Assembly (NCBI GenBank): GCA_019308995.1 | Contig: JAFDHD010000007.1 | Coordinates: forward strand, 1-64,000 | Reading direction: 5' to 3' | Length of the DNA stretch: 64,000 nucleotides | Source of the DNA: Deltaproteobacteria bacterium | Lineage (GTDB): Bacteria > Desulfobacterota > Desulfarculia > Adiutricales > JAFDHD01 | In this document: positions 3,751 to 63,953 of the stretch, piece after piece | Layout of the letters: each line of letters opens with the position of its first letter | Position numbering within the stretch: position 1 is the first letter of the stretch | Notes under the pieces: model-generated | The model's database searches: none | What the model was told of the DNA's origin: nothing | Seen by the model: only the letters and a program-made list of their open reading frames with translations | Translations under genes and position numbers: made by a program

Positions 3751-4206
3751 GCTTCCGTCCCCCGGGAAACGCTGATTTCCCTGAGTAAACATGAAAAGGT
3801 TCAAGGGTGTCAAGTGCCGGGTGTTACAGCCAAGGAATTTTATTTCCCCCGCCGGTTTTTAATGCTTACGAGTCTTTTCTTGGCTAATGTATAACCCTCA
3901 AGCCGGTCAGGACTGGATTCGGGGATGCCTCATTGATTCGGTTTTAGTAATAAAACATTGATGAACATCACTGGCCCTATGCTTCTCATGTTTGGAGGGC
4001 TGAAGAGAAATTTTTGTCACTCTTTTTTACGTCATGCCATAACACGCAGCTGTTCCTATTTTAGTAACCCTGGCGTGGTTTTTTATTGGCTAGAGATTGT
4101 TAGATATTTCACAAAAATACTTGCAGGGCCGGGAAAATATATGCTATGTAAAGGGCGATTTTGCAATAAAGGATTTCATGACTCTTATTTAAAGGAGGAC
4201 TGATCT
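3751..4206. promoter_or_regulatory. Divergent intergenic region, antiporter / ETF-QO
   Basis: A 456-base region between two divergent genes, AT-rich toward the ETF-QO side. A possible plus-strand promoter is TTGCAG (4121-4126), 18 bases, TATGTA (4145-4150), which would give a leader of about 50 bases before the ETF-QO start. Both boxes deviate from consensus, so this is tentative. No small gene or RNA was recognised. Confidence 0.3.
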
Positions 4207-5910
4207 GTGGAAGAAGAAAGAGATGTTATGGAAGTTGATGTTCTATTTGTGGGGGGTGGCGTTGCCTGTCTTAGTGGGGCGTTGCATCTCGCAAATTTGA
4301 TTAAAGAACATAATGAAAAGGTGGAAAAGGGGGAAGAAGGCGAGAAACTGGATGAGATCATGATCGCCATTCTGGAGAAGGGCGCCTATATAGGTTCTCA
4401 TTCTATATCCGGCGCTGTCATGGATCCGGTAGCCCTAAAAGAGCTTATTCCGGACTTTTTGGAAAAAGGCGCTCCTCTGGAGGCTGAAATAAAAAAAGAA
4501 AAGGTCTGTCTGCTCACTAAAAAAGGCAAGATCGCATCCCCGATCACACCTCCCCCTCTCAATAATCACGGGAATTATATCGTCTCTCTTTCGCGGTTCA
4601 CCGAATGGCTCGGTCAGATGGTTGAAGAGAGCGGGATTGATATCTTTCCCGGTTTCGCTGGCACCGAAGTTTTATATGACGGGAATCGAGTCATTGGAGT
4701 CAGAACGGGCGATAAAGGCATTGACGCTGATGGCAATAAAAAAGAAAATTATGAGCCGGGCATTGACTTGCAGGCCAAGGTCACCGTTTTTGGAGAAGGG
4801 TCGCGAGGCAGCCTCACTAAAACCCTGATAAAAAAGTTCAACCTGGACGCAGGCACGAATGCCGTGAATTACGTCCTTGGCGTTAAGGAGGTCTGGGAAG
4901 TCCCGGAAGGAAGAATTGAACCCGGCATGGTCTATCATACCCTGGGTTACCCGCTTAAAAGAAATACTTACGGCGGCGGGTTCATTTATGGCATGAAGAA
5001 CAACCAGGTGTCCGTTGGTCTTTTAACAGGATTGGATTACCAGGACCCGCACCTGGACCCTCATATGGAATTTCAAAAATTCAAGCTCCATCCCCTGATG
5101 GCTGAAATCATCAAAGATGGTAAACTAGTCCAGTACGGGGCCAAAACAGCGCCTGTCGGCGGGTTCTTCGCCGTTCCCAAGCTCTTCTTTAACGGCGGCC
5201 TTATTGTCGGAGATTCAGCAAATCTCTTCATCAGCCAAAAGATCAAAGGCATACACATGGCCATGAAATCAGGGATGCTGGCTGCTGAAACAATCCTGGA
5301 AGCCCTGGTAAAAAGCGATTTTTCCGAAGCCGGCCTGAAGGAATATAAGACATCCCTGTATAACAGCTTCATCGGAAAAGAACTTAAAAAGGTACGGAAT
5401 TTCCATCAGGCCTTTCAATCGGGACTCTACATCGCCCTCATCAAGGCAGGGTTCCAGTATGTCCTCGGTGGCAGAATTATCAAAAACCGCGTGACCACAG
5501 AGCCCGATTATATCCATCTTAAAAAGGTCATGGATGTTTACAGCACCCAAACGCCTTCCGATGAGCAGAAGGGCGCTATAAAGTTCGATGGCGAGCGTAC
5601 CTTTGACAAGGAAACCGATGTCTACTATTCAGGGGCAACCCATGAAGAACAGCAGCCGGCTCACCTCAAGATAGCGGACCTCAATATTTGCTTTACCAAG
5701 TGCACTGAAGAATATCAAAACCCGTGCCTCAGATTCTGTCCCGCCAATGTTTATGAAATAGAGACCGACGAGGACACGGGTGAACGCACCATGAAACTCA
5801 ATTTCTCCAACTGCGTCCACTGTAAAACCTGTGATATCAAAGATCCATATGAACTCATCACCTGGACGGCGCCGGAAGGAGGAGGAGGGCCAAAGTACAC
5901 CATGGTTTAA
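4207..5910 (+). CDS. Electron transfer flavoprotein:quinone oxidoreductase (ETF-QO)
   Basis: A 567-residue FAD and [4Fe-4S] protein that takes electrons from reduced ETF and passes them to the membrane quinone pool. It has an N-terminal FAD-binding fold, the GSHSISGAVMDP segment typical of ETF-QO, the hydrophobic membrane-associated middle region, and a C-terminal ferredoxin-like domain with CPANVYEIE and NCVHCKTCDIKDP. The length matches the family. Translation starts at GTG 4207, seven bases after AGGAGG. The dinucleotide motif reads GGGVACLSGA, so the third glycine of GxGxxG is Cys21, which is unusual. No etfAB genes are nearby; qmoABC follows on the same strand after 268 bases with its own promoter. 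This suggests electrons from acyl-CoA dehydrogenation reach the quinone pool used in sulfate respiration. Confidence 0.93.
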   Translation: MEEERDVMEVDVLFVGGGVACLSGALHLANLIKEHNEKVEKGEEGEKLDEIMIAILEKGAYIGSHSISGAVMDPVALKELIPDFLEKGAPLEAEIKKEKVCLLTKKGKIASPITPPPLNNHGNYIVSLSRFTEWLGQMVEESGIDIFPGFAGTEVLYDGNRVIGVRTGDKGIDADGNKKENYEPGIDLQAKVTVFGEGSRGSLTKTLIKKFNLDAGTNAVNYVLGVKEVWEVPEGRIEPGMVYHTLGYPLKRNTYGGGFIYGMKNNQVSVGLLTGLDYQDPHLDPHMEFQKFKLHPLMAEIIKDGKLVQYGAKTAPVGGFFAVPKLFFNGGLIVGDSANLFISQKIKGIHMAMKSGMLAAETILEALVKSDFSEAGLKEYKTSLYNSFIGKELKKVRNFHQAFQSGLYIALIKAGFQYVLGGRIIKNRVTTEPDYIHLKKVMDVYSTQTPSDEQKGAIKFDGERTFDKETDVYYSGATHEEQQPAHLKIADLNICFTKCTEEYQNPCLRFCPANVYEIETDEDTGERTMKLNFSNCVHCKTCDIKDPYELITWTAPEGGGGPKYTMV

Positions 5911-53305: not shown

Positions 53306-53682
53306 CACGTTTTCCCCTTTTCCGTCAAATGGCAATCCCAGCAATAAGGTAAGACCCCCAGATAGTTGTGACACTTGTCACAAAAATCAGCCTTGCTGGT
53401 ATGGCAGTCCAAACAGGTATCGGTCAGACTCATTTTAAACGTCTTGCCATTTTTATTGGTATAGATTCGGTTGGCAACACGGACGACGTTGTCTCTCCAA
53501 TTATTCAAAAGCTGCATGTGGGAAGCCTTCATATAATTCGTCGCCTCCACGCACGCTTTCTGGTCCTTGGGGTAGGGGCGCTCCGGTGTAGTCGAGGCCT
53601 TCCCCCGGTTATACCAGAACGGAAACGTTATCAGGATGAGAAAGATAACGAGCCCGGCCGTAATCTTGCCTCCATCATACAT
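53305..53682 (-). CDS. dsrJ: Sulfite reduction-associated complex triheme cytochrome DsrJ
   Basis: A 125-residue periplasmic cytochrome c anchored by an N-terminal helix (ITAGLVIFLILITFPFWY). Three heme motifs are seen: CLDCH, CDKCH and CWDCH. The family is known for an unusual His/Cys-ligated heme; a free Cys lies in the KACVEATNYMKASH region. The start is ATG 53682 (MYDGGKITAG), behind GGAGG, overlapping dsrK by eight bases. An in-frame ATG at 53691 is possible. Confidence 0.94.
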   Translation of the reverse strand: MYDGGKITAGLVIFLILITFPFWYNRGKASTTPERPYPKDQKACVEATNYMKASHMQLLNNWRDNVVRVANRIYTNKNGKTFKMSLTDTCLDCHTSKADFCDKCHNYLGVLPYCWDCHLTEKGKT

Positions 53683-56339: not shown

Positions 56340-56876
56340 CTAACTCCCGCCAGCTCCCGGCTTTTTTGACATTGTCCCGCGCCTCGGGCCATGCCCCGTG
56401 ATCAAGTCTAGCCTGTTCATTTGAAGCTCTTTTATCTTGATCTTGTGAACTTTCTCACGACAGGACATATACACGTCAAAGGCGAGCAGGGCTAAATCGT
56501 CAATTCGGGATTCAAGTTCAAGCAACTCCTCAGAGATCCGCTTATCCTGGACCTCTTCATCCAGCTCCGCCCTGATTACCTGTTTGAGCAGGAAGATGAA
56601 GTCAAGGGCCGCAGAAGGTGAAAAGTCCTGAACAGCCCTGATCCTAATAATCTTGTCAAGACAGGCGGAGAGCTCATCAGGCTCGGCCTGCCTGTGAAGC
56701 GCGTCAAATATGGCTTCTATTTGCGTCGAAGCCGTATACCCTACCGGGTCGGCAAAGCGGTTTTTCTTCTTTTTCATGAATTTGGACATCTCAACCGAAT
56801 ACGTATCCGCGATCAAGGCAAACCACTTTTTAATTATGCCAGACCGTTTTTCCGCTAAAAGGTTTTCTAGGTCCAT
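56340..56876 (-). CDS. RsbRD_N-like sensory or regulatory protein upstream of dsrM
   Basis: A 178-residue helical cytoplasmic protein. The first 150 residues resemble the N-terminal domain of RsbRD stressosome proteins: LLAEKRSGIIKKWFALIADTYS, a helix with DPVGYTASTQIEAIFDAL, DKIIRIRAVQDFSPSAALDFIFLLKQVI, and a final helix. Here it is not fused to a STAS domain. The C-terminal 25 residues are basic and disordered. The gene is first in the dsrMKJOP transcript and could sense a small ligand or bind DsrM/DsrK. Its family call rests on general pattern, not a catalytic motif. Confidence 0.7.
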   Translation of the reverse strand: MDLENLLAEKRSGIIKKWFALIADTYSVEMSKFMKKKKNRFADPVGYTASTQIEAIFDALHRQAEPDELSACLDKIIRIRAVQDFSPSAALDFIFLLKQVIRAELDEEVQDKRISEELLELESRIDDLALLAFDVYMSCREKVHKIKIKELQMNRLDLITGHGPRRGTMSKKPGAGGS

Positions 56877-57089: not shown

Positions 57090-57722
57090 TCAATCGGCCT
57101 GCCGGGCTTCGAGGGCCGCTTGAGCCAGATCCCCGACAATCCTGGTCTCGAGCCTTTTACCCTCATAAAGCAAGAAGCGTCCCTGATCCTCGACCAAGCC
57201 CTTAAGATCATCCTCAGCCTCAACCCACGTCATGCGGCCCAGGCACCAGCAGGCCAGGCCCCGCGCGCCAGAATCAGGATCGTTCAGACAATCAAGCACC
57301 AAATCACCGGCCTCCTCGACCAGGTCGGGACGAACCGGGGTGACCCGCGCGATGGCCCAGAGTGAGCCTCTCCGGAAGACTTCCTTCTCAATTTTTGAAA
57401 TCACGATCGGGAAAAAGTCCTCCACCAGGTCCGGGTCATTTACGCAAATTTCGCCCAAGGCTTCGGGCGCGGACCAGCCGATGCTGCCAGAATCGTCATT
57501 GATCGTCCAGATCAGCCGGGCAATAACTTTCTCCAACAAAAAAGGATCCTCCCGGGCCACCCAGCCCATGGCTGTAACCGCTCGCCAGCGCATCAGTTCC
57601 TCAGTATCGAAAAGCAGCCGGTTGACAGCCCCAACGACCCGGCGATCCCGGGCTAAAAGGGTGAGAAACCCTTCCCGGTCGTTCTTTGCCAGCAGTTTGT
57701 AAACCTCAGATTTAAGGCTCAT
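57090..57722 (-). CDS. HEAT-repeat protein at the end of the dsrABDN operon
   Basis: A 210-residue alpha-solenoid protein of about five HEAT-like repeats: RWRAVTAMGWVAREDPFLLEKVI, SIGWSAPEALGEICVNDPDLVEDF, FRRGSLWAIARVTPVRPDLVEEA, and SGARGLACWCLGRMTWVEAEDDL. There is no catalytic motif or signal. Its ATG overlaps the dsrN stop by 11 bases, so it is translated with it. HEAT proteins of this kind act as protein-binding scaffolds or, in phycobilin lyases, as cofactor-handling proteins. A chaperone-like role in siroheme or DsrAB maturation is a reasonable guess. Confidence 0.8.
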   Translation of the reverse strand: MSLKSEVYKLLAKNDREGFLTLLARDRRVVGAVNRLLFDTEELMRWRAVTAMGWVAREDPFLLEKVIARLIWTINDDSGSIGWSAPEALGEICVNDPDLVEDFFPIVISKIEKEVFRRGSLWAIARVTPVRPDLVEEAGDLVLDCLNDPDSGARGLACWCLGRMTWVEAEDDLKGLVEDQGRFLLYEGKRLETRIVGDLAQAALEARQAD

Positions 57723-59139
57723 GAGCCGCTTTCCTTTGAGGTCTGCTCACAGCTTCCTTATGTTTGAACGCCAGGTCAATGAGCGCCTCGGCCCAGCGGG
57801 TCGTTCCCAAGGCGTGCAGGTGGGTATAAGTCCCGAGAACGTTATTAACGGCCAGCCCGTCCAGTCCTCGATCAAATCCGTAACCCCGCCGGACCTCGAA
57901 GACAAGATTCACCTCAGATGGCTCGTATTTCAAAGGCCGCGAGTAATGAAATTCGTGACCAACCAGTTCATGGCCTGCCGCATAGAAAGGGTTGGACTTC
58001 ACAGCCTTCAGAATCGTATAACCGTGACCCTGTGGCCGACTTTCCAGCCCGAAGGTCACCGGAAACACGCCGGCCATGGGATAGGTCTTCTCCTTGACCA
58101 CCATCTCCCGGCCCAGGTACATCAAGCCGCCGCACTCAGCGTAAATGGGCAGGCCGGCAGCAGCAGCCCGGTAAAGCTCCCGGCGCAGACCTTCGTTACC
58201 CGCCAGAATTTCCGCGTGAGTTTCAGGGAAGCCTCCGCCCAGGTAGAGCGCGTCAACCTCTGGCATGACAGCCATGGACAGAGCTGAGAAAGTGACCAGC
58301 TGTGCGCCCAGCCGCTCCAGAAGTTCTAGATTCTCCGGGTAATAAAACTGGAAGGCCGAATCCCGAATGACCCCGATCTTGACCTGGCCCCGAGGTTCAG
58401 GGGCTGGTCCGGGCCAGAGGCCGGGTGAGTAATCAAGGTCCGGAGCGCTGAGGGCTAACTCCCATAACCGTTCCAGGTCCAGGTGTTTTTGGGCTAAATC
58501 CGCCAGGGTCTTAATAACGACCCCTCCCGCAGGATGTTCCTGCGGCGGGATCAAGCCCAGGTGGCGTTCTGGCAAAAACTGATCCCTGGCCCTGGGGACG
58601 GCGCCAAGAATGGACAGACCGGTCTCGGCCTCAATGGTGGATCTGACCAGGGCCTCCTGCCTGGAAGTGGCCACCTGGTTGAGAATCACCCCGCCGATGT
58701 GCACCGCGGGATCAAAGTGCAGACATCCCAGCACCACCGCGGCCAGGGTTCGGGTGGCCTTGGTGCAGTCCACGACCAGGACCACGGGCGCGCCAAGAAG
58801 CTTGGCCAGGGCGGCGGTGGAATTAGTCCCCGCCTCATCAGTCCCGTCATAGAGGCCGCGGTTTCCTTCGATTAAAGCGCCGTCCAGATCGCGTCCAACC
58901 CGGCCGGTAAATGACTGCATCACCTTTTCGGCGGTCATGAGGTAGGCGTCTAGATTAAAACAGGGAAATTGAGCCGCGCGGGCCAACCAGCCGGCGTCAA
59001 TATAGTCAGGACCTTTTTTAAAAGGCACGAGGCGGCGGCCTTTACTTCGCCAGGCGGCCAGCAGGCCCATGGAAATGGTCGTTTTGCCGCCGCCGCCCCT
59101 AAGGGCCGCGACCGCTAAACGAGGGTAGGATACGTTCAC
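57712..59139 (-). CDS. dsrN: Siroheme amidase DsrN (CbiA/CobB family)
   Basis: A 475-residue glutamine-dependent amidotransferase related to cobyrinate a,c-diamide synthase. In dsr operons it is DsrN, thought to amidate siroheme for DsrAB. The N-terminal ATP domain has RGGGGKTTISMGLLAAWRSKG and the catalytic-loop segment FKKGPDYIDAGWLARAAQ. The C-terminal class I glutaminase-like domain has YAECGGLMYLGREM (Cys nucleophile) and GHEFHYSRP. The start is GTG 59139, overlapping the dsrD stop (GTGA). Confidence 0.94.
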   Translation of the reverse strand: MNVSYPRLAVAALRGGGGKTTISMGLLAAWRSKGRRLVPFKKGPDYIDAGWLARAAQFPCFNLDAYLMTAEKVMQSFTGRVGRDLDGALIEGNRGLYDGTDEAGTNSTAALAKLLGAPVVLVVDCTKATRTLAAVVLGCLHFDPAVHIGGVILNQVATSRQEALVRSTIEAETGLSILGAVPRARDQFLPERHLGLIPPQEHPAGGVVIKTLADLAQKHLDLERLWELALSAPDLDYSPGLWPGPAPEPRGQVKIGVIRDSAFQFYYPENLELLERLGAQLVTFSALSMAVMPEVDALYLGGGFPETHAEILAGNEGLRRELYRAAAAGLPIYAECGGLMYLGREMVVKEKTYPMAGVFPVTFGLESRPQGHGYTILKAVKSNPFYAAGHELVGHEFHYSRPLKYEPSEVNLVFEVRRGYGFDRGLDGLAVNNVLGTYTHLHALGTTRWAEALIDLAFKHKEAVSRPQRKAAHEP

Positions 59140-59351
59140 TCTTTGTCCGAAGGGAGTTCCAACCAGGTGTGTCCACTATATGTGTAAACAAGCTTTCCTT
59201 CTGAGACCAGTACGGAGATGGCCTCTTTCACTTGCCTTTTATCAACCTTAAGCGACCTGGCCAGGGTTCTGGCCAGGTCGCCGGGTTTTATCTTCTTATG
59301 GCTCTCAGCCACCAAAATGAAGACTTCTTGTTTCAAGTCTTCGGGATTCAT
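59136..59351 (-). CDS. dsrD: Dissimilatory sulfite reductase activator DsrD
   Basis: A 71-residue winged-helix protein. It begins NPEDLKQEVFILVAESHKK, has the helix pair PGDLARTLARSLKVDKRQVKEAISVLVSEGKL, and ends with the wing VYTYSGHTWLELP. DsrD binds DsrAB and raises its activity, with no DNA role shown. The length is slightly short of the usual 78. It starts four bases after dsrB and overlaps dsrN. Confidence 0.96.
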   Translation of the reverse strand: MNPEDLKQEVFILVAESHKKIKPGDLARTLARSLKVDKRQVKEAISVLVSEGKLVYTYSGHTWLELPSDKE

Positions 59352-59355
59352 GCCT

Positions 59356-60459
59356 CTATTCGGTGAACGTGAACTGAGTGGTGTTCCGCCAGGTGGTCAT
59401 GGCAAAGCGATAGTCGTCAATATGGAAGTGGGTAAATTCAATACCTGTCCTCTTGAAGAACTCCTCCCAGCCAACCCGCTCAATCCAATCACCCATGCGC
59501 TCGTAAGGCCGGGCATCGTCTGCGTAAACTTCGACGATGGTTCTGATGGTTTCAACCACTTCAGGCCAGCGCGGCGGATTATTTGGTATAAAAGGCACGG
59601 CCAGCTTGGAGAACTTGGGCATGGACCTGGCGTTGGAGACCTTGCCACCGACCCACAGGGCCACGCCGTCCCCGACTGGGTCAGCCAGAGGCATGGCCGG
59701 GCACATGGTATAGCAGTTACCGCAGAACATGCAGCGTTCATTATTAACCTGAACCGACTTGACCTGCTTCCCTTCGTCGTTTTCAAAATTATAGGGCCTG
59801 ATGGCCGCGGTGGGACAGGAAGCGATGGTCGTCGGGACCTCGCATACTTTGAGCAGGCGCTCATGCTCGACCAACGGCGGTTTGCGGTGAACTCCCAGGA
59901 TAGATATATCCGAGCAATGCACCGCGCCGCACATATTCAGGCAGCAGGCCAGTGAGATGCGGAGCTTGGCGGGTAATCTTTTATCATGAAAATACTCAAA
60001 AAGCTCGTCCATAACCGACTTGACGATACCCGAGGCGTCAATGGCCGGGGTATGGCAGTGAATCCATCCCTGGGTATGGATAATGTTGGTAATGCCCGCA
60101 CCGGTGCCGCCGATGGCGTGGCCGTCGGCCTTGAGCTTGTCCTTCAAAGGCTGGAGTTTGGATTCATCAGAGACCAGAAATTCAATGTTATTCCGGGTGG
60201 TGAATCTCAGGAGTCCTTCAGAAAATTCGTCAGCCAGGGCCCCCAGGTCACGCATGTGCAGGGTGCTCATCAAGCGAGTCCCGGCGATACGCACCGTCCA
60301 GAGTTTGTCCCCGGTTTCAGAGACGTGCATGAGCACACCAGGTTCTAATTCCTCATGATAAAGCCACTTGCCATAATTCTTTTTGATAAAAGGGGTCCAA
60401 TTCAAATCGTACTTCGGAGGACCGATATCGGTAATTTTATCTTTCATTGCGTCTGACAT
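59356..60459 (-). CDS. dsrB: Dissimilatory sulfite reductase beta subunit
   Basis: A 367-residue subunit of the alpha2beta2 enzyme that reduces sulfite with DsrC. It has the siroheme/[4Fe-4S] ligand region ([11 protein letters not shown], and [15 protein letters not shown]), the ferredoxin domain [19 protein letters not shown], and the [17 protein letters not shown] segment. The start is ATG 60459 ([11 protein letters not shown]) behind AGGAGG; the frame is open to 60525 without a second site and would overlap dsrA. It lies 20 bases after dsrA. Confidence 0.97.
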
Positions 60460-60479
60460 ATTATACACCTCCTCCTGAC

Positions 60480-61736
60480 CTAGGCCTGGTGCCTGGCCCG
60501 GTACTCCTCTAAGTCGCGTTCCCAACCGCCTTCAACGTCCTGTTCCAGGAAGAAGATGTACGGGTTGGACCTTGGCTCTTTAATCATCTGCGGAATGGGA
60601 TCAATCTCTACCGCATCCAAAAAGGCCCGGTAGCCCAGCCGCTGAATCAGTTCGCCGACGCGTTCACGGTTTTTGCCATTTTCATCCCACCACTCCCAGA
60701 GTTTATCAATGAAGTCCTTGAGCTCAGTGTAGTTATCATCCAGGTCGTCGCTGACTTTTTCCATCTTCAGGAAAGGCATAACAACCGCGCTCATCTGGGC
60801 GCCCTCGAGAATAGGGGCCTTGGCGCCGATAAGGATGGTGGCGCCGACGTCGGTCCCGGGCCGAAGCGCCTTGGTCATGACATTGATGCAATGCATGCAG
60901 CGGGTGCATTTCTTGTTGTTGATTTGAATCTCACCGTCCTGATAAGACATGCACTCGGCCGGACAAAGATCAATGACATATTTCTGGATATCCAGCCCGG
61001 CGTCCGCGTAGTTCTGAACCTCTTTCTGGTTGATCCGAATTTCATCCCGCCACGTGCCGATAATGGAACAATCGGCCCGGGCAATGGCTGCGACGCAGTC
61101 GTTGGGACATCCAGAAGTCTTGAACTTGAACTTATAAGGCCAGGCCGGGCGGTGCATTTCATCCTGGTAAGTCATGGTGAGATTATAGGTGATGTCCTGG
61201 GTGTCGAGACAGGACCACTCACACCGCGCCCTGCCTACGCAGCAGCTCGGGGTCCGTAAGGCTGAACCGGAGCCGCCCAGATCAAAGCCATTGGCGGTCA
61301 GGTCCGCAAAACAGGGCTCCAGGGCCTCAGTCCGGCAGCCAAGGAAGATGATGTCACCGGTAGAGCCGTGCATGTTGGTGATCATGCTGCCGTGCTTGTC
61401 CCAGATATCGGCCAGGGTCCTCAGCTGCTCAGAGCTGTAAAACTTGCTGGCCGGCTGGTTGATACGCAGGGTGTGAAAGTGCGTAACAGACGGAAATAGA
61501 TGGGGCACGTCCGAATAACGACCGATCACGCCGCCGCCGTACCCAAAGACACCAACGATTCCGCCGTGTTTCCAGTGACCGATCTTCTGCTCGTAAGACA
61601 GCTCGAGCTGACCCAGAAGATCATTGGCCGTGGGACTGCCGCCTTCATCAGCCGCTCGCTTTATATCCTTTACAAAGCTCGGCCACGGCCCTTTTTCGAG
61701 TTCATCAAGAAGGGGAGTTTTGTGAGTAATCGGCAT
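60480..61736 (-). CDS. dsrA: Dissimilatory sulfite reductase alpha subunit
   Basis: The 418-residue alpha subunit of sulfite reductase. It has the phylogenetic marker region [21 protein letters not shown], the siroheme-cluster cysteines in [12 protein letters not shown] and [16 protein letters not shown], and the ferredoxin domain [11 protein letters not shown] preceded by CPAECM. The length is normal. ATG 61736 follows GGAGGTAATT. It is the first gene of dsrABDN-HEAT, with a leader of about 210 bases containing palindromes. Confidence 0.97.
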
Positions 61737-61950: not shown

Positions 61951-61984
61951 AGGGAAATATAAATTTCCCTTAGTTTTTTGTCAA
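61951..61984 (-). promoter_or_regulatory. dsrA promoter with operator-like palindrome
   Basis: On the minus strand TTGACA (61984-61979), 17 bases, TATATT (61961-61956) make a near-consensus promoter, with start near 61949. The -10 lies inside AGGGAAAT-ATAA-ATTTCCCT (61951-61970), a perfect 8-base inverted repeat. A protein bound there would block polymerase. This is a typical operator position. Confidence 0.7.
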
Positions 61985-62212: not shown

Positions 62213-62440
62213 TTAGAGGTCCTCAAGATCTCGGGCCCCGGGAAGCATATAATAAGTAGTGCTGCCACTGGACCAGTACTCAAGCGAATGGTCTTCGATC
62301 ATGCCTTGAACGACCTTCTTAATTTCCTTTTTTTTCAGGCCGATGCCTTTGGCGATGTCACTTAAGTAGTGCATCTTTTTTGACTTTGCCTTCTTTTCCA
62401 GCCAGTCAAGTATTTGCTGTTTTATTTCGGCGTCTTCCAT
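62213..62440 (-). CDS. DsrD-like small winged-helix protein upstream of dsrA
   Basis: A 75-residue protein with the size and layout of DsrD: EIKQQILDWLEKKAKSKKM, a helix pair LSDIAKGIGLKKKEIKKVVQGMIEDHSL, and a wing with aromatic residues (EYWSSGSTTYYMLP). DsrD itself is encoded at 59136-59351; the identity is low, so this is a paralogue or convergent winged helix, rather than a duplicate. It is very rich in lysine. ATG 62440 follows GGAGGTTAATGG. It has its own promoter and is divergent from nothing: it reads toward dsrA, 476 bases away. It could be a DNA-binding regulator of dsr or a second effector of DsrAB. Confidence 0.8.
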   Translation of the reverse strand: MEDAEIKQQILDWLEKKAKSKKMHYLSDIAKGIGLKKKEIKKVVQGMIEDHSLEYWSSGSTTYYMLPGARDLEDL

Positions 62441-62485
62441 CCATTAACCTCCATCGGGCCAGTAGCCCAATTGATGAATGCCTGG

Positions 62486-62514
62486 ACTATATGACCTTCA
62501 GGCATAATTGTCAA
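62486..62514 (-). promoter_or_regulatory. Promoter of the DsrD-like gene
   Basis: On the minus strand TTGACA (62514-62509), a 17-base spacer and TATAGT (62491-62486). Start is expected near 62479, about 40 bases before the ATG. Confidence 0.7.
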
Positions 62515-62519
62515 GGAGC

Positions 62520-62537
62520 TTGTTAATTTTTTAACAA
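62520..62537 (-). promoter_or_regulatory. CRP/FNR-type palindrome upstream of the DsrD-like gene
   Basis: TTGTTA-N6-TAACAA, a perfect 18-base inverted repeat, ending five bases upstream of the -35 box and centred near -50. The form matches the general CRP/FNR/HcpR site (TTGTnA-N6-TnACAA). Which regulator binds is not shown. Confidence 0.55.
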
Positions 62538-62590: not shown

Positions 62591-63310
62591 TTATAATTTA
62601 CCCATTCGCTCCAGGTGCTCCCGGATAAATCCGGCTTCTTTTTCCTTGCCCAGGCGCAAATAGATGTCATGGGCCATCTCCAGATAAGGTACAGCCTTTC
62701 CAGGATCATCCTGGCGTTCATAAACATCGGCCAGGCCGACCAGCCCCAGGGCCATGCGGTCTAAATCGCCAAGTTTCTCTGCCAGGGTAATCAGCTCCCG
62801 GTAGGAAGCCTCCACATCCGCCGCCGCCCCCTTGGCTTTATACAGGGGGATGATCTTTTCCAGGAAATAAATGGCCCCGACCTTGTCATCATCCTTCTGG
62901 CAGAGATCAAGCCCTTTGAGGGCATGATCGAGCGCTTCATCCCAATTTTCCCTCTTTACCACCAGGTCGGCCATTCGATCTAGAACCCAGGCCTGCCCTT
63001 GAGGCAGACCCATATCCTGATATATTTTCAAAGATTCCCGGAATAACTCTTCTGCGCTGTCAACCTTTTCCTGCCTCAAGGCCAGATCACCTAAATCAAT
63101 CAAGGACCGAGCCAGATCTTCTGGCTGACCGCTTTCGCGGCAGAGCTGAGCGCATTGACTCAGAAACTCTTCGGCTGCGTCATAGACCTTTTCATCGAGG
63201 TAGATGCGGCCGATTTCATGGAGCGCCCTGGCCTCGGCCACGCGATCTCCTTCAGCCCGGGCAAAATCAAGGTCGTCTTGGAGCTGCTCCATCTGTTCGA
63301 GCCGATCCAC
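62591..63310 (-). CDS. Tetratricopeptide repeat protein
   Basis: A 239-residue all-helical cytoplasmic protein made of TPR units of the 40-residue type (ARALHEIGRIYLDEKVYDAAEEFLSQ, ARSLIDLGDLALRQEKVDSAEELFRESL, GLVGLADVYERQDDPGKAVPYLEMA). TPR proteins mediate protein contacts. The frame starts at GTG 63310, 13 bases after the next TPR gene. No partner is evident other than its neighbour and the dsr genes downstream. Confidence 0.82.
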   Translation of the reverse strand: MDRLEQMEQLQDDLDFARAEGDRVAEARALHEIGRIYLDEKVYDAAEEFLSQCAQLCRESGQPEDLARSLIDLGDLALRQEKVDSAEELFRESLKIYQDMGLPQGQAWVLDRMADLVVKRENWDEALDHALKGLDLCQKDDDKVGAIYFLEKIIPLYKAKGAAADVEASYRELITLAEKLGDLDRMALGLVGLADVYERQDDPGKAVPYLEMAHDIYLRLGKEKEAGFIREHLERMGKL

Positions 63311-63323
63311 AGGCCTTGCCTCT

Positions 63324-63953
63324 CTAACCCCGCGCGGCTTCTATTTTCCGGCCGACTTCAGGATCAACCGGATATTTCAGGCGCACCGCCTGGCGGTAAT
63401 GCTCGGAAGCCTTGTTCGGGTCTCCTTTTTCCAGATAGGCCAGGGCCAGGTTGTAATGGGCCAAGGCGAAGTTATCGTCCTTTTCAAGGATCTTTTCATA
63501 CCGGGCAATGACCCCATCCAGGTCCCCCTGCCGCTCCAGGACGCGCGCCAGAGACAGCTGCGCCGGAATCAACTCCGGATCTAATTCAATGGCCTTCTCA
63601 AAGGCCTGAGCCGATTCTTCAAGGCGATCCTGGAGCATCCGGGCAAAACCGATGTTGTTATATGCCAGGATGGCTCGCGGATTGATAGCCAGCGCCTTCT
63701 CATTTTCAGCAATGGCTTCATCCAGCTTCTTTTGCTTGAGATAGAGACCTCCCAGGTTGATATGGGCCTCAACCATATCAGGGTCCAGTTCCAGGGCCAT
63801 TTTGAATGCAAATTCAGCGTCTTCGATCTGGCCTTTCTGCATAAAGGCCAAACCCAGATTATAATGAGCGGTTGGGTTTCGGGGTCTGGCCCCGATAAAC
63901 TGCTTGAGACGGTCAATCAGACCCTCCAGTTTAATTTGCTCGTCAAATGTCAT
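63324..63953 (-). CDS. Tetratricopeptide repeat protein
   Basis: A 209-residue protein with about five 34-residue TPRs, regular and close to consensus (PTAHYNLGLAFMQKGQIEDAEFAFKMALELDPDM and similar, the fifth ending KASEHYRQAVRLKYP). No signal peptide or other domain. ATG 63953 follows AAGGAG. It is first gene of a two-gene TPR unit. Function unknown. Confidence 0.85.
   Translation of the reverse strand: MTFDEQIKLEGLIDRLKQFIGARPRNPTAHYNLGLAFMQKGQIEDAEFAFKMALELDPDMVEAHINLGGLYLKQKKLDEAIAENEKALAINPRAILAYNNIGFARMLQDRLEESAQAFEKAIELDPELIPAQLSLARVLERQGDLDGVIARYEKILEKDDNFALAHYNLALAYLEKGDPNKASEHYRQAVRLKYPVDPEVGRKIEAARG

Follow-up and report, generated by a model that had tools for sequence, protein, structure and literature searches.

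Introduction

DsrD, or DsvD (PF08679; solved structures 1ucr and 1wq2), binds the sulfite reductase DsrAB in other organisms and activates it allosterically; its gene usually follows dsrB. DsrD serves as a marker for reductive sulfur metabolism, and it is generally assumed to form one unit with dsrAB. Expression of sulfate-reduction genes can respond to redox state, as in Desulfovibrio vulgaris, where sat is repressed by Rex in an NADH-dependent manner (PMC7531388). Here we analyzed the first 64,000 nucleotides (hereafter the window) of contig JAFDHD010000007.1 from a Deltaproteobacteria bacterium (assembly GCA_019308995.1). An initial annotation of this DNA had described an open reading frame (ORF) just upstream of dsrA as a second, DsrD-like winged-helix protein with a regulated promoter, and had placed a normal dsrD in a dsrABDN cluster. 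We find that the flagged gene is itself the canonical dsrD and that a perfect Rex-type operator stands at its promoter. We propose that dsrD has probably moved upstream of dsrA and come under Rex, that is NADH/NAD+, control, so that the activator of DsrAB would be tuned separately from DsrAB itself.

The window protein shares with known DsrD its family, its fold, the motif YWSSGSTT.Y and its occurrence as a single copy in a genome with dsrAB. Whereas known dsrD follows dsrB, however, the window gene lies upstream of dsrA behind its own promoter. A comparable arrangement is the dsrABND order of Desulfarculaceae such as Dethiosulfatarculus and Desulfocarbo, which belong to the same inferred class and in which dsrD is likewise uncoupled from dsrB and adjoined by a tetratricopeptide repeat (TPR) gene. 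These differ from the window in that dsrD comes after dsrN, with neither a Rex box nor the additional winged-helix gene, here called type 2, that the window carries between dsrB and dsrN.

Results

The gene upstream of dsrA encodes the only canonical DsrD

The flagged ORF (62213-62440, minus strand) begins with ATG behind a GGAGG-type ribosome site and encodes 75 amino acids, rich in lysine. It matched PF08679 with 77.4 bits over positions 1-65 of the 65-position profile, against a curated cut-off of 24.2 bits, and its best sequence match was the solved DsrD 1ucr (E=3e-13), including the wing motif EYWSSGSTT.Y. An AlphaFold2 model (predicted local distance difference test 85) had the helix-helix-helix-strand-strand order of a winged helix, and the top Foldseek matches of this model were the DsrD structures 1ucr and 1wq2. 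The DsrD-like character that the initial annotation had read from the sequence was thus borne out by profile and by predicted structure, but its view of the gene as a second, paralogous copy was not, because a genome-wide profile search returned this ORF as the sole PF08679 protein. Taken together, the profile score, the match to 1ucr, the fold and the single copy identify the gene by sequence as the bacterium's only standard dsrD, with no spare. The one usual feature it lacks is a position directly 3' of dsrB, which is typical of dsrD without defining it.

Compared with the sister species (G001), the dsrD codons gave a nonsynonymous divergence (dN) of 0.14 and a synonymous divergence (dS) of 2.4, the latter saturated, which points to purifying selection. 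By analogy with DsrD elsewhere, we infer that the protein binds and activates the DsrAB of this bacterium.

A Rex-type operator adjoins the dsrD promoter

The near-consensus promoter TTGACA-N17-TATAGT noted in the initial annotation is present upstream of dsrD. With up to one mismatch allowed, this pattern occurs twice in the window, at the dsrD and dsrA promoters, against 0.06 matches expected from shuffles. Next to it, the palindrome first described as TTGTTA-N6-TAACAA is indeed perfect, although its arms span seven rather than six base pairs (TTGTTAA-AAAA-TTAACAA, minus strand). In this form it fits the Rex regulon operator pattern used for our scans, TTGTKAA-N4-TTMACAA near a promoter, and equals published Rex motifs: the same motif is given as the typical Rex box of Clostridiaceae (PMC9600882), and the Rex motif of T. 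ethanolicus is ATTGTTANNNNNNTAACAAT (PMC5886521).

The site stands out from its background. With up to two mismatches, the degenerate pattern had four sites in the window (0.45 expected), the dsrD site alone being perfect, and the whole 3.78 Mb genome contains no other perfect match; a control with the reversed pattern gave no match in the genome even at one mismatch. When the sister species was scanned independently, its sole perfect match again fell at dsrD, within a conserved block of palindrome, TTGACA and TATAGT. A second site, with one mismatch, lies at 4097-4114 of the window, about 90 bp upstream of the gene for electron-transfer flavoprotein (ETF):quinone oxidoreductase (4207-5907, plus strand), and a Rex-type site also precedes the orthologue of this gene in the sister species (on L181). 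At up to one mismatch, the genome held no Rex box beyond these two. A site with two mismatches at 53366-53383, within the dsrK-dsrO stretch, was set aside as a chance match, probably coding sequence.

The regulator itself is encoded in the genome (L177, 1489-2124; NF003993, 292 bits against a cut-off of 217), where rex lies close to an apparent gene for an F0 ATP synthase subunit. Among the genomes sampled, rex was present in G000, G001, G003 and G005 and was not found in the seven of family f2, which are without a close DsrA.

These observations suggest how the locus could work. dsrD would have left the slot between dsrB and dsrN and would now be expressed, 5' of dsrA, from its own sigma-70-type promoter. 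Through the perfect Rex operator next to its -35 box, dsrD would be repressed by Rex at low NADH/NAD+ and released as NADH rises; we regard both Rex binding and this direction of action as most likely. DsrD, once made, would bind DsrAB and activate it allosterically, while DsrAB would be transcribed from its own promoter, at which the window scan found no Rex box. No terminator was found between dsrD and dsrA, so that transcription from dsrD could run on into dsrAB. The leaders of dsrD and dsrA matched no Rfam element at E up to 1. As in D. vulgaris, a gene of sulfate reduction would belong to the (here predicted) Rex regulon, under an NADH-responsive repressor acting at a palindromic operator; the D. 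vulgaris target is sat, whereas the target predicted here is the gene for the DsrAB activator. The activator gene is here uncoupled from dsrAB and carries a redox-type operator of its own, which makes it possible to test when DsrD is needed.

Three points weigh against control by Rex. The box upstream of dsrD in a further relative, G005, is degenerate, with imperfect arms, beside promoter hexamers that are kept. About 870 kb of dsr loci from other lineages had no Rex box at up to one mismatch, except in the sister species, and Rex control of dsrD would therefore be lineage-specific. Finally, a palindrome beside a -35 box fits repression without naming the repressor. CRP/FNR-type regulators have palindromic operators that can resemble a Rex site, and the 18-bp, AT-rich palindrome could belong to one of these or to another regulator. 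We regard this as quite unlikely given the exact match to the Rex consensus, the presence of rex and the second site at the ETF:quinone oxidoreductase gene that is common to the sister species.

The initial annotation had also suggested that the flagged protein might regulate dsrA by binding palindromes in the dsrA promoter. A perfect palindrome, GGGAAAT-N4-ATTTCCC (61951-61970), does overlap the -10 box of dsrA. The winged helix of DsrD is similar to the DNA binders Z-alpha and SmtB, and possible DNA binding was raised in the DsrD crystal paper (Mizuno 2003, as cited in PMC6018796). The sister species, however, keeps this palindrome only in part and G005 has lost it, and we consider such a role for DsrD highly improbable. 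The idea found no support here: the palindrome next to dsrD matches a Rex operator, a motif that was not found at the dsrA promoter.

A distinct winged-helix protein occupies the usual dsrD slot

The gene between dsrB and dsrN, which by its position had been taken for the normal dsrD, encodes the type 2 protein of 71 amino acids. Its PF08679 score of 21.2 bits lies under the cut-off (20.0 bits for the orthologue in the sister species), its best Pfam match was MCM4_WHD (30.4 bits), and the WSSGSTT wing motif is absent. We rejected a recent duplication as the source of the two window proteins, since BLASTP gave zero alignments between them. In a tree of 113 proteins, built on few columns, DsrD and type 2 separated with split support of 94/91, the two window genes falling on opposite sides. 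By sequence, type 2 is thus a clade apart from PF08679 DsrD that shares its winged-helix fold. Two distinct winged-helix families therefore hold the dsrD slot, and naming dsrD by position can pick the wrong gene, as it did in the initial annotation.

When 395 genomes of the phylum Desulfobacterota were searched with the type 2 profile, three other families (f12, f56 and f59) proved to carry a protein of this kind between dsrB and dsrN. These proteins resemble the window protein in clade, slot and length, and those of f12 and f56 also in a YTY.G wing. PF08679 exceeded its cut-off in 161 of the 395 genomes and in none of the 25 with type 2 profile matches. The genomes of f12, f56 and f59 accordingly differ from the window genome, which carries both proteins; the pair was seen only there and in its two dsrAB-bearing relatives of the same order. 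dsrD has been reported in cable bacteria and other Desulfobulbales (PMC13047784).

What type 2 does bears on how DsrAB is tuned. Aligned by hhalign, the type 2 and DsrD profiles matched end to end with 94.7% probability, the predicted model of type 2 is a winged helix, and in other families type 2 fills the dsrD slot where PF08679 is absent. Both proteins might therefore bind DsrAB and split basal from redox-tuned activation, which is possible, if on balance doubtful: type 2 is without the wing motif, its nearest solved structures were general winged-helix regulators, while DsrD ranked 12th, and for winged helices as small as these, similar profiles say little about a common function. Matches to generic winged helix-turn-helix families (GntR, HTH_36 and ArsR/MarR folds) could instead mean that type 2 binds DNA and regulates the dsr operon, with a function unrelated to that of DsrD, which alone would activate DsrAB. 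This is unlikely, because the protein has neither a sensor nor an obvious dimerization part, and, being strictly tied to the dsrB-dsrN slot, more likely has a role linked to DsrAB or DsrN. Type 2 is probably an old relative of DsrD, or a substitute for it, whose role is tied to DsrAB. A rather tentative elaboration is that sulfite reductase has two DsrD-like tuners, with type 2 co-transcribed with dsrAB and the supply of canonical DsrD set by NADH/NAD+ through Rex; if so, reductase activity would be matched to electron supply through the level of activator and not that of enzyme.

In other families (L071, L078, L079, L081, L085 and L092), a type 2-like winged helix is fused to a methyltransferase-like domain.

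The arrangement was seen in a single sampled lineage

Among the sampled genomes, which are fragmented drafts, a close DsrA within the order of the window genome was found only in G000, G001 and G005. All three keep tpr2-tpr1-dsrD-dsrA-dsrB and dsrB-type2-dsrN, in agreement with the expectation that the flagged gene would neighbor dsrA in relatives; in G005 the cluster sits on two contigs, broken inside dsrB. Elsewhere in the class, family f5 (including Dethiosulfatarculus and Desulfocarbo) has dsrA-dsrB-dsrN-dsrD-tpr, with dsrB and dsrN separated by extra genes in some members, family f4 has dsrABD, and in f6 dsrD is divergent from dsrA. A locus of another lineage (L158) likewise has dsrD upstream of dsrA, and dsrD departs from the position directly after dsrB also in Desulfarculaceae, L102 and L103. 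The position of dsrD is thus variable, and only the lineage of the window was seen to combine DsrD with type 2.

Two PF08679 matches each occurred in eight genomes (G165, G243, G286, G381, G063, G094, G218 and G379), which may hold true DsrD paralogues. DsrD-like genes were also present at L106, L112, L113 and L120, with dsrAB undetected in the stretch examined.

Features of the dsr locus in the window
Feature	Coordinates	Strand	Remarks
TPR protein 2	63324..63953	-	Conserved neighbor of dsrD
TPR protein 1	62591..63310	-	Conserved neighbor of dsrD/dsrA
Rex-type operator TTGTTAA-N4-TTAACAA (predicted)	62520..62537		Five bases 5' of dsrD -35 box
dsrD promoter TTGACA-N17-TATAGT	62486..62514	-	Hexamers conserved in G001, G005
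dsrD (canonical DsrD)	62213..62440	-	PF08679, PDB 1ucr match, Foldseek, sole genome match
dsrA promoter TTGACA-N17-TATATT	61956..61984	-	Separate; without Rex box; equivalent sequence in G001, G005
dsrA	60480..61736	-	Pfam NIR_SIR; orthologues 63-91% identical
dsrB	59356..60492	-	Pfam NIR_SIR + Fer4
Type 2 winged-helix protein	59136..59351	-	Between dsrB and dsrN, usual dsrD slot
dsrN (CobB/CobQ-like amidotransferase)	57712..59139	-	Pfam GATase_3

The true start of dsrB probably lies inside the listed ORF. We found no known dsr role for the two TPR proteins of the window; in Desulfarculaceae and f4, too, dsrD or dsrA has TPR genes beside it. A protein with an RsbRD_N domain (56340-56876, minus strand) adjoins dsrM and is probably DsrT.
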